Shown: positions 17,647 through 48,279 of the stretch, piece by piece
How the letters are laid out: every line of letters starts with the position of its first letter
Position numbering within the stretch: the stretch's first letter is position 1
Assembly (NCBI RefSeq): GCF_017357105.1
Contig: NZ_CP071596.1
Span: forward strand, 3,348,001-3,412,000
Source of the DNA: Natronosalvus caseinilyticus
GTDB lineage: Archaea; Halobacteriota; Halobacteria; Halobacteriales; Natrialbaceae
Direction: 5' to 3'
Length of the DNA stretch: 64,000 bases
Notes under the pieces: model-generated
What the model was told of the DNA's origin: nothing
The model's input: the letters and a program-made list of their open reading frames with translations, nothing else
Database searches by the model: none
Program-made: the position numbers and the translations under genes

Positions 17647-18840
17647 ATGGACAGCGTCGACGCCGCGGGACTGGGCATCGGAGACGAGTACCCGCCACGG
17701 ATCATGGGCGTGCTGAACGTCAGCGAGGAGTCGCCGTACGATCCGAGCGTGTTCGACGATCCCGAAGAGGCGGCCCGGTACGTCGACGAAGAACTCGTCG
17801 GCGAGGGTGCGGACATCGTCGACGTCGGCCTCGAGTCGGCGAACAAGCGCTTCGACGTGCTCAGCGCAGCGGAGGAACTCGATCGCCTCCACGTCGCTCT
17901 CGAGACGATCGATCGCGTCTCCGGGGACGCCGTGTTCTCGATCGAGACGCGCTACGCCGCGGTCGCCGACGAGGCCCTCGCGAGCGGATTCGATATGGTC
18001 AACGACATCTGCGGGTTCGCCGACCCCGAGATGCCCGCGGTCTGCCGGGAGCACGACGCAGCCGTCGTGAAGATGGCGAGCCCGCCGGACCTCGAGCGAC
18101 CCGGCGCCGTCGAGGAGACCGACTGGAGCGCCCGGAAGTCGCCCGAGTGGGTCGAGTCGGCCGACTACGTCGACCAGATCTACGAGGCGCTGAAGCAGAA
18201 CGGGCTGACCGCAAAGACCATCGTCGACCCCGCTTTCGGCGGCTGGAGCGAGGCGAAGACGCTCGCACACGACCGGGAGACGTTTCGCCGGCTTCGCGAG
18301 TTTCGCGCCCTCGGCCGACCGATGCTGGTCTCGATCAACCGGAAGAACTTCCTCGGCGACCTCGTCGGGCGCGATACGGAGGGGCGACTCCCCGCGAGCC
18401 TCGCGGCGACCGCGCTGGCCGTCGAGCGCGGGGCCCACGTCGTCCGAACGCACGACGTGGCGGAGACGCGCGATGCCGCACGCATCGGGAAGGCGTTCAC
18501 CGACCGCGAGCAGGTACTGGAAGACGGTGTTCGCGTCACTCGGCTCGAGGTCGAGTCGACGCGCGACCTCAGAGCGCACCTTCGCGAGGGTGGGGTCGAT
18601 CCGTCGCTGGCCCACGAAATGTTTAATCAGGTTCTCGAAATCGACGGCCTCACGCCATCGAAACGCGAACGAGTCGGCGAATTGGCACACGATACGGGCG
18701 CAACCCCGGTCGAATTGTCTGACGGGCGTATGCTGTTGTGCGCGTCTGCCGATCAACTATCCGGGATTTTCGCGCGCCTCGAGGGCTCAGACGACGAAAC
18801 CGAAGGCGCCTGGAACGCCGTCAGACGGGTGCTCGAGTAA
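17647..18840 (+). CDS. Divergent dihydropteroate-synthase-like protein
   Basis: A 397-residue TIM-barrel protein related to FolP, which joins a pterin pyrophosphate to p-aminobenzoate. Aligned blocks are recognisable: RIMGVLNVSEESPYDP, VDVGLESANKRF, VFSIETRYAAVADEAL, DMVNDICGFADPE, VDPAFGGWSEAKT, PMLVSINRKNFLG and VVRTHDVAETRDA. Several signature residues differ from canonical FolP: the F-S/D-GG after the first Asn is gone, GGES-T-RP is replaced, and the D of SVDT is a Glu. Residues about 305-397 form a C-terminal extension. It may act on an archaeal pterin rather than be a true FolP. The adjacent mptE supports a pterin role. Confidence 0.75.
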   Translation: MDSVDAAGLGIGDEYPPRIMGVLNVSEESPYDPSVFDDPEEAARYVDEELVGEGADIVDVGLESANKRFDVLSAAEELDRLHVALETIDRVSGDAVFSIETRYAAVADEALASGFDMVNDICGFADPEMPAVCREHDAAVVKMASPPDLERPGAVEETDWSARKSPEWVESADYVDQIYEALKQNGLTAKTIVDPAFGGWSEAKTLAHDRETFRRLREFRALGRPMLVSINRKNFLGDLVGRDTEGRLPASLAATALAVERGAHVVRTHDVAETRDAARIGKAFTDREQVLEDGVRVTRLEVESTRDLRAHLREGGVDPSLAHEMFNQVLEIDGLTPSKRERVGELAHDTGATPVELSDGRMLLCASADQLSGIFARLEGSDDETEGAWNAVRRVLE

Positions 18841-18875
18841 GAGAAAGCTTATGGCGTCCGCTTCGAAAGAGGGAA

Positions 18876-18931
18876 GTGGAAGCCGGGTGGCCTCACGGGT
18901 AGGGGTACTTGCGAGGCAACGCTCGGCCCAC
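18876..18931 (+). ncRNA. Candidate structured RNA between the DHPS-like gene and mptE
   Basis: The 56-base segment folds by inspection into a three-part stem: GTGG (18876-18879) with CCAC (18928-18931), GCCGGG (18882-18887) with CTCGGC (18922-18927, one G-U), and GCCTC (18890-18894) with GAGGC (18913-18917). That is 15 base pairs broken by small internal loops, capped by an 18-base loop rich in G. A TATA-like CTTATGG lies near 18848-18854, about 26 bases before 18876, so it could be an independent transcript. It could equally be a 5' leader element of mptE or a 3' element of the upstream gene. It is not a tRNA. Confidence 0.5.
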
Positions 18932-18975
18932 AAACGGATTATTGCGGTCGGCTCTAACATGGGACAGTGACGTCT

Positions 18976-19674
18976 ATGGACTATCACGAGTGGGAACCGG
19001 TATACGACGCTATTCTCAGGGACTTCGGATTCGATCGGGCCGCCGACGAGCGCGCTCGCGACGTGCTCGCGGGGCTCACCTCACCCTTCGACCTCGAGCG
19101 ACTCGCGTTCGTCAGCGGAGCCCGGGCCGTCGTCGCCGGAGCGGGACCGTCTCTCGAGACCGACGTGGCCCTCGAGACGGCTCGAGCGGCCGAGGTCGTG
19201 ATCGCGGCCTCGACGGCGGTGGACGTACTCGAGGCCGCCGGCGTCGAGGTCGATTGCATGGTAACCGATCTCGACAAGAATCCGGAGACCGTCGAACGGC
19301 TCACCCACCACGAAACCCCGGTGGTCGTCCACGCGCACGGCGACAACGTTCCCGCCCTTCGAACCGTGGTCCCCGAGTGCGACCGGAAGTTCGTCCTGCC
19401 GACAACGCAGGCCGAACCGGCTGGACCCGTCCGCAACTTCGGCGGCTTCACCGACGGCGACCGGGCGGCGTTTCTCGCGGACCACCTCGAGGCTGGTCGG
19501 TTGGGATTCGTCGGCTGGGATTTCGACGACCCGTCCGTGGACGCGGTGAAATCGAAAAAGCTTGCGTGGGCCGAGCGGTTACTCTACTGGATCGAGCGTC
19601 GTCGCGACGAGACCTTTTCGGTGCTCGACGGCCGTCGTGACGGAATCGACGTACGGGCGCTGCCGCTCGAGTAA
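18976..19674 (+). CDS. mptE: 6-hydroxymethyl-7,8-dihydropterin pyrophosphokinase MptE
   Basis: A 232-residue protein of the COG1634/DUF115-like family that activates 6-hydroxymethyldihydropterin with ATP in archaeal pterin (folate or methanopterin) synthesis. Typical blocks are [19 protein letters not shown], a [15 protein letters not shown] segment, VVHAHGDN and a [11 protein letters not shown] region. ATG 18976 opens [20 protein letters not shown], the conserved start; a GTG three codons earlier (18967) is the alternative. A TTATT at 18939-18943 could be its own promoter. The upstream DHPS-like gene and the intergenic hairpin suggest a shared pterin locus. Confidence 0.92.
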
Positions 19675-46786: not shown

Positions 46787-48279
46787 GGCGCACCACCGAG
46801 AGGAACGGCGCCGCGAGCCGTCGATCGTGCGTCCGACAGCGTGTCGCCAGGCGAAGGGCGCGGCGGCCGTACTGCCGATTGGGCCGTTTCGATCACCTCG
46901 CTCGAGAACAGGCGTCGACTCGAGTCGAGCGACGAATCCGTCGAGCCCCCCTCGTCGAACGTAATTCGAACGTCGCCCGTCGCTGAAATCCTCTCGAGAC
47001 TCGCCGACTCGACGAACGCCTCGTCGCCGGCGAACAGAACGAGCGTCCGGTCGTCGGCGCGCTCGAGGCTGAAGGCGTACGTCTCGGTTCGCCAGCGCGT
47101 CGTCGTCGCTGTGCGATTCGCCGCGTCGACTCCGGATTCGGGTTCGAGGCTCGTCGCCCGGCGCTCGAGTGCCGTGGCCATCGCGTCCGTCGCGAGCGAG
47201 GCGTTCGATTCGTCCTCGAATCTGATCGCCCAGGCGTAGCTGTCGACCCGGTTATCGCCGCTGTCGCCGTCGCCGGCCACGGCCCCTTCGCTCGAGAACC
47301 GCCGCACGCGGTCGTATGACCAGCCCGCGGCGGCGTCTCTCGCCGCGTCCGGGACGAGTTCTGATGCGAGTACCTGCTCGAGGACAAACGACCCAACGAC
47401 GTCCGTTCCGGCGGGGTCGCGCTCCCAGCTAGCGGATTCGGTATCGACGTCAATATCGAACGGCTCGAGTTCGGCCTCGCCCGAGGCGATTGCCGGCTCG
47501 CCGCGGCGAACCTCCTGCATCGTCACCGGCGGCGTCTCGTAGACGCTCCAGTGGGTCGCCGGCGAATCGACCGCTGCCTCGACGTATCGACCGCCGTGGT
47601 GGTACGGCCCCCAGGCGACCCTGGTTCCCGGATTCGCGTTCGGGTACAGCGACTCGAGTAACTCGTCCTCGGGCGCCACGAGCAGGTCGTAGGTTTCGAC
47701 GTACGCACTCGAGACGTAGACGGCGCTTCCTTCGATCAGGCTCGTCACCGTCAGTCGGGCGTCGGTCGTGCCGCGGTGTTCGGCTGGAATCTCCGCCTGG
47801 ACTCGCTGCGGTGCGCCACGCTGGAACTGCGCGGTGTGGACCAGTTCGTGGACCAGCACCTGTTCGATTGCCGCCGCCGAGGCGTCCGCCTCGGGCAAGA
47901 GGTACACCGCCTGCATGGGACTCGAGACGCCACCGACCCGGAGTTCCTCGGCCCCGTCATCAGGATCGGGTGCCGGGATTCCCATCACGGCATAGAAACT
48001 CGAGGGGTCCTGGACGGTTCGCGGTAGCCGCGCGATGGGCTCGTTCACGTACACCGTCGGCGGCCGGAGGTCGACCGCGAGGAGCGCCTGCACACGCTCG
48101 AACGTCGTGTTCGCGTCGAGGGGCAGGTCCCCGTGGACCTCGAGCGATCGCTCGTCGGTCGCGCGGTCGTCCGGCGGCCCGTCGCCGCTCGTGTCGGCCA
48201 TCGGCGCCGCACAGCCGGCGAGCACCACCGACAACAACACGGCGGCCGTCGCCATCCGTCGACCGACCGACTGAGACAT
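46783..48279 (-). CDS. Hvo_1808-type surface lipoprotein with HExxH motif
   Basis: A 498-residue exported protein. The signal (MSQSVGRRMATAAVLLSVVL, then Ala-Gly-Cys) fits a lipoprotein. EQVLVHELVHTAQFQRGAPQ (near residue 140) carries an HELVH zinc-metallopeptidase-like motif, and TSLIEGSAVYVSSAYVETY holds a Glu that may be the third ligand. The family (Hvo_1808-like surface protein) is known in haloarchaea, but catalysis has not been shown to my knowledge. ATG 48279 is supported by a TATA box (TATTTATAG, about 48302-48310 on the minus strand); GTG 48288 is the alternative. It is coupled to the DUF998 gene. Confidence 0.8.
   Translation of the reverse strand: MSQSVGRRMATAAVLLSVVLAGCAAPMADTSGDGPPDDRATDERSLEVHGDLPLDANTTFERVQALLAVDLRPPTVYVNEPIARLPRTVQDPSSFYAVMGIPAPDPDDGAEELRVGGVSSPMQAVYLLPEADASAAAIEQVLVHELVHTAQFQRGAPQRVQAEIPAEHRGTTDARLTVTSLIEGSAVYVSSAYVETYDLLVAPEDELLESLYPNANPGTRVAWGPYHHGGRYVEAAVDSPATHWSVYETPPVTMQEVRRGEPAIASGEAELEPFDIDVDTESASWERDPAGTDVVGSFVLEQVLASELVPDAARDAAAGWSYDRVRRFSSEGAVAGDGDSGDNRVDSYAWAIRFEDESNASLATDAMATALERRATSLEPESGVDAANRTATTTRWRTETYAFSLERADDRTLVLFAGDEAFVESASLERISATGDVRITFDEGGSTDSSLDSSRRLFSSEVIETAQSAVRPPRPSPGDTLSDARSTARGAVPLGGAP

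Follow-up and report, generated by a model that had tools for sequence, protein, structure and literature searches.

The gap between a DHPS-like gene and mptE in Natronosalvus caseinilyticus encodes an RNA hairpin that is a real, deeply conserved element whose structure is under selection, and that likely constitutes a new RNA family. Judging from complementarity, matched variation and co-loss, the three lines of evidence on which this interpretation draws, the hairpin is probably part of a class-wide haloarchaeal set, found in the mptE leader and in stand-alone small RNA (sRNA) candidates, that pairs in trans with the 5′ end of the S-layer glycoprotein (csg) mRNA. The complementarity between its loop and csg suggests that a very abundant archaeal protein is under RNA control of a kind not described before. 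The features discussed below lie in a 64,000-nucleotide stretch of DNA (the window) and are numbered from its first base.

17647 to 18840, plus strand: DHPS-like gene upstream of the hairpin (PF00809, Pterin_bind, and TIGR01496), a usual but not constant neighbour
18838 to 18853, plus strand: BRE/TATA-like promoter TAAGAGAAAGCTTATG, nearly invariant in the family alignment; promoter function predicted
18876 to 18931, plus strand: three-part hairpin (fold z = -4.98 and class-wide compensatory changes)
18897 to 18908, plus strand: near-invariant loop GGGUAGGGGUAC, with which the S-layer mRNA 5′ end is proposed to pair
18930 to 18944, plus strand: A/U-rich tail ACAAACGGATTATTG after the hairpin, conserved in the family, not class-wide
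18976 to 19674, plus strand: mptE, 6-hydroxymethylpterin diphosphokinase-like (PF01973, MptE-like, E = 6e-20; synteny)

Structure and conservation of the hairpin

Three stacked stems of 4, 6 and 5 bp make up the hairpin, just as the initial annotation had described it: an outer stem (GTGG, 18876–18879, with CCAC, 18928–18931), a middle stem (GCCGGG, 18882–18887, with CTCGGC, 18922–18927) and an upper stem (GCCTC, 18890–18894, with GAGGC, 18913–18917). Fold prediction adds a further short apical pairing inside the region that had been taken for loop. The minimum free energy of the 56-nt segment is -33.2 kcal/mol, compared with -20.7 ± 2.5 for dinucleotide shuffles (z = -4.98; none of 200 as low). 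Two other early claims, a 135-base intergenic gap and a TATA box about 26 bases 5′ of the hairpin edge, also hold: the gap spans 135 nt (18841–18975), and a TATA-like GAAAGCTTATG that is nearly invariant in relatives is present at about 18843–18853. The first three bases of the promoter are the stop codon of the DHPS-like gene. Across the class, the promoter takes the form GAGAAARCTTATR and keeps a fixed distance from the hairpin loop, with 42–48 nt, mostly 44–45, between the end of the TATA motif and the loop in 154 distinct sequences. This TATA spacing predicts a transcript start at about 18875–18877, and the A/U-rich tail is a possible candidate for the 3′ end of a short RNA. A conserved intrinsic terminator after the hairpin was rejected, as the A/U-rich tail is found family-wide only and most genomes have no T-run. 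A 39-codon open reading frame across the gap (18851–18970) was likewise rejected as a small protein, since relatives lack its ATG and have indels that disrupt the frame.

At the DNA level, 36 of the 37 same-family genomes searched (window genome counted) retain the gap, and little similarity to it was seen beyond the family. The aligned family copies have in common the promoter TAAGAGAAAGCTTATG, the hairpin, the invariant loop GGGTAGGGGTAC and the A/U-rich tail. A covariance model built from this one family (R1) misregistered other families and matched 323 of the 391 class genomes, usually with one match per genome. The class-level model (R3) matched 351 of 391 Halobacteria genomes (about 90%), usually once each, and 341 of 377 good assemblies. 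In phylum samples of 295 and 325 genomes, the covariance-model matches listed fell only within the class Halobacteria, and in a pattern scan of GTDB genome contigs the named records among the matches listed were haloarchaeal. Four weak covariance-model matches (L111, L113, L287 and L288), which have neither the loop nor the promoter, were judged to be chance.

Compensatory changes support the helices, and they proved abundant in relatives, where the initial annotation had proposed looking for them. An alignment of 41 sequences shows double-sided changes at 15 of its 20 base pairs. Its covariation score of 0.314 compares with 0.153 ± 0.010 for shuffles (0 of 500 as high), and the score does not exceed 0.096 when the structures are slid by 1–3 columns. 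In an arm-swap test on 67 non-redundant sequences, in which arms were exchanged between molecules with equal alignment freedom, a molecule’s own arms paired at 10.82 of 12 positions, compared with 9.25 ± 0.11 for swapped arms. The invariance of the loop covers the columns GGGTAGGGGTA (41 diverse sequences).

Searching Rfam 15 at gathering thresholds with the window, a 241-nt core (E up to 5) and twelve related loci returned no match save one tRNA elsewhere in the window. A separate ARAGORN tRNA call (47134–47224, plus strand), which has a two-base anticodon and no Rfam support, lies in an ordinary GC-rich stretch and is probably false. A search of open-licence full texts turned up no account of the hairpin or of any sRNA directed to csg, and the loop sequence used as a query there returned nothing relevant; an earlier mention elsewhere is possible.

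Position upstream of mptE and recurrence of the loop

Every genuine locus whose synteny was examined has mptE as the next same-strand gene, at a distance from the loop of about 47 to 278 nt. Across lineages, the hairpin lies on the same strand as a single conserved gene, between that gene and a promoter. Several loci retain the hairpin and mptE with no DHPS-like match upstream. In some families, only ~16 nt separate the hairpin from the mptE start codon, which leaves no room for another promoter, and in several hairpin-less genomes almost nothing separates mptE from the upstream gene, or the two overlap. With mptE constant downstream, a conserved promoter of its own, no space for a second one in some families and next to no gap in several hairpin-less genomes, the element is best read as the putative 5′ leader of an independently promoted mptE. 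The initial annotation had suggested an independent small RNA or a regulatory leader for mptE. The leader position has stood up, the hairpin lying always just upstream of mptE behind a conserved promoter, whereas the implied link to pterin metabolism has not, given a loop that complements the S-layer mRNA 5′ end and recurs on hairpins away from mptE. As a separate observation, the C-terminal ~110 residues of the DHPS-like protein (17647–18840), past the pterin-binding domain, are unaligned in several relatives.

The weak second matches of R3 are unrelated stems with an identical loop, mostly behind a TATA-like promoter and with a T-run in several genomes, and their neighbours are convergent or unrelated genes. 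Across 46 genomes, GGGTAGGGGTAC itself matched 112 times and a reversed control 24 times. Sixty regions around such matches were read and sorted into stand-alone loop hairpins (for example, L339, L341, L343, L345, L348, L350, L351, L385, L353, L390, L391 and L363), matches within coding sequence that resemble chance, and a third group that lies on the opposite strand. The presence of the loop on hairpins away from mptE points to a trans-acting role.

The stand-alone hairpins differ in form. A second hairpin class, GGTGGACAGC-GGGTAGGGGTAC-TCGC..TCTGTCCACC, lies behind a csg-like promoter, CCACAAAGCATATTCC (L339, L341, L343, L345, L348, L350, L351, L385 and L380), with its loop near position 2000 of the sense strand in the regions read; one genome (G272) has two copies. 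As these hairpins occupy mostly different genomic sites, the class may represent an sRNA gene that is mobile or has been gained more than once. Intergenic same-loop hairpins were also seen behind a ACACAAGACTTTTA promoter (L291–L294, L297, L299, L300 and L363), several of them followed by GGACATTTTTCG and a convergent membrane-hydrolase-like gene. Short hairpins, ACCTCGGGTAGGGGTACACGAGGT, were observed at L353, L390 and L391. A T-run follows the L390 hairpin and lies near that of L353; the genome with both L390 and L391 (G156) has an mptE without the leader hairpin. The CGGGTAGGGGTACNCG loop pattern matched 28 viral contigs (L461–L488).

Complementarity to the 5′ end of S-layer mRNAs

The exact complement of the loop, GUACCCCUACCC, is found at the predicted 5′ end of S-layer glycoprotein mRNAs. 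At 19 sites, the complement GTACCCCTACCC lies 30–31 nt after the start of a TATA-like box and 83–137 nt before a surface-glycoprotein start codon, and the four of these S-layer genes that we scanned match the halo_sig_pep and S-layer glycoprotein profiles. The fixed TATA spacing places the complement at the mRNA 5′ end, give or take a few bases, and csg transcription is predicted to start at about this site (ACCCCUACCC). The site is mostly unpaired in the csg leader, at a mean of 0.73. Directly after it comes a large leader hairpin with an apparently conserved base, GGUGACAG...CUGUCGCC, in L365, L368, L375, L382 and others. One locus (L358, G170:C1:1468830-1476000) contains a tandem pair of S-layer glycoprotein genes, with GTACCCCTACCC at the predicted mRNA 5′ end of each.

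In the window genome, the csg leader carries TACCCCTACCC, complementary to 11 of the 12 loop bases. The duplex between loop and site has a predicted energy of -23.3 kcal/mol, and none of 1000 shuffled leaders was as good. In single-molecule folds, part of the loop is predicted to be self-paired (GUA/UAC), and the loop–site duplex did not appear when the window hairpin was co-folded with its own csg leader. A duplex of 11–12 bp within a hairpin loop is also sterically strained, and all three points are real difficulties for the proposed pairing.

We searched for the S-layer signal-peptide family in 27 chosen genomes and then read the leaders. Loop and site show matched changes in three genera, some of them partial. 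In genus g74, two genomes (G316 and G206) have GGGC in the loop and GCCC in csg, and a third (G151) has GGCAGGGGC and GCCCCTGCC, with mismatches remaining outside the core. In genus g58, a loop with GGGGC (G135) is met by GCCCC in both site-bearing csg copies, and in genus g55 the loop GGATAGGGG is accompanied by CCCCTATCC in csg (G071), again with mismatches outside the core. Overall, with each of 14 genera represented by one genome, the csg site is matched better by the genome’s own loop than by permuted loops (p = 0.001, relatedness within families ignored), and G-U wobble masks part of this signal. The complementarity to a target and the matched changes in both partners are those of a trans-acting antisense sRNA, in a comparison that does not model relatedness. 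Other variant loops are GGUAGGAGUAC, in G244 and G392, and GGGCAGGGGUGU, in G224; if the pairing is true, the csg sites of the first two genomes should be near GUACUCCUACC and that of the third should be CCCCUGCCC.

Hairpin and site are also lost together. Six hairpin-less genomes (G107, G115, G112, G095, G045 and G039) have no csg site, compared with 18 of 20 hairpin genomes that have one (Fisher p = 1.2e-4, relatedness ignored). The remaining two, G101 and G134, have the hairpin, yet no site was seen in the S-layer genes found there.

The simplest account is pairing in trans, since a nearly fixed loop on variable stems is complementary to a conserved 5′-terminal site of another mRNA, and we infer that this pairing takes place in the cell. 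The hairpin would be transcribed from its own promoter as the first ~60–70 nt of the mptE transcript, and a short RNA might be released or terminated from this leader. The job of the stem would be to display the fixed loop GGGUAGGGGUAC, which would base-pair in trans with GUACCCCUACCC, starting at about +1 of the csg mRNA and ahead of its large leader hairpin; the same-loop hairpins elsewhere would be stand-alone sRNAs with the same csg target. The pairing would cover the very first bases of the mRNA, well away from the start codon, so that csg mRNA stability, with the 5′ end either shielded from or exposed to decay, appears a likelier point of action than a direct block of the start codon. 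A more specific version, plausible but put forward tentatively, is that the mptE-leader hairpin and the stand-alone sRNAs, which have a 12-nt loop in common, bind S-layer mRNA 5′ ends as a removable cap that sets their lifetime, so that wall synthesis would be tied to folate-gene transcription.

Alternative explanations and known RNAs

The hairpin could instead be a purely cis-acting mptE leader, a riboswitch or protein-binding element that controls mptE through binding of a pterin/folate metabolite or a protein to its loop, with the csg match coincidental or secondary. This is favoured by the position of the hairpin, always directly upstream of mptE, by its loss where mptE abuts the upstream gene, and by its small fixed loop atop a covarying stem. 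However, a purely cis-acting leader leaves the exact complement fixed in S-layer leaders and the matched variation unexplained, the identical loop sits on hairpins with no adjacent mptE or visible folate gene, and Rfam, folate riboswitches included, gave no match; we consider this explanation unlikely. Pairing with csg, for its part, leaves the strict tie to mptE unexplained.

The evidence for pairing is symmetric, and the logic might therefore run in reverse, with the csg mRNA 5′ end as the regulator and the mptE leader and other hairpins as its targets or sponges. The strict retention of mptE downstream would suit this arrangement, as would the expression of csg, which exceeds that of every other protein-coding gene in Haloquadratum walsbyi (PMC5496347). 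We nevertheless regard it as very unlikely, in view of the stand-alone same-loop hairpins, which suggest that the hairpin is the effector, and of there being no known reason for coupling a folate gene to the S-layer. Alternatively, GGGTAGGGGTAC might be a DNA operator, that is, a double-stranded transcription-factor site common to the mptE, csg and sRNA promoters. Every site does lie close downstream of a TATA box, and one common regulator would account for both the shared sequence and the co-loss. A DNA site, however, needs no stem and no fixed orientation, whereas the motif occupies the loop of covarying RNA stems at mptE, is displayed in a hairpin loop at most sibling loci and is always in the opposite orientation in csg, making this the least probable of the explanations considered.

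The preferred reading, pairing in trans with csg, has a bacterial parallel. FasX of Streptococcus is a trans-encoded sRNA that pairs at the 5′ end of the ska mRNA and alters its stability. Like FasX, the hairpin is a short structured RNA complementary to the very 5′ end of one abundant mRNA encoded elsewhere; unlike FasX, it sits in the leader of a conserved gene, its loop recurs on unrelated hairpins, the pair is kept class-wide, and its effect on the target is a prediction. The folate/pterin-linked THF riboswitches in Rfam resemble it as structured leaders of a pterin gene, but the present hairpin has no Rfam match, and its loop recurs off folate genes and complements an S-layer mRNA. Archaeal H/ACA guide RNAs have a pseudouridylation pocket between two stems and a 3′ ACA box, and a hairpin of ~55 nt followed by ACA is likewise found in the window and its family. 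This assignment was rejected: there is no pseudouridylation pocket, given an internal loop of insufficient size, which in most other sequences is just a single mismatch, and given that the stem pairs covary; nor is the ACA class-wide.

To our knowledge, few archaeal sRNAs have a known target. The class-wide loop–target pair offers a ready, testable RNA–RNA interaction on the S-layer glycoprotein mRNA, which is among the most abundant in these cells and whose output, if the pairing is true, would be tied to a leader in folate biosynthesis. Structured leaders have been considered untypical of haloarchaea, with 72% of transcripts leaderless in Haloferax dRNA-seq data (PMC4983044), and a review of archaeal sRNAs mentions neither the S-layer nor csg (PMC5867862). 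The Methanosarcina mazei RNAs sRNA162 (PMC3510493) and sRNA41 (cited in PMC5867862) are described as having ribosome-binding-site or cis/trans targets in one genus. Like them, the hairpin is an archaeal RNA proposed to act in trans on an mRNA; unlike them, as described there, it is spread class-wide in haloarchaea, and its putative target site is 5′-terminal.
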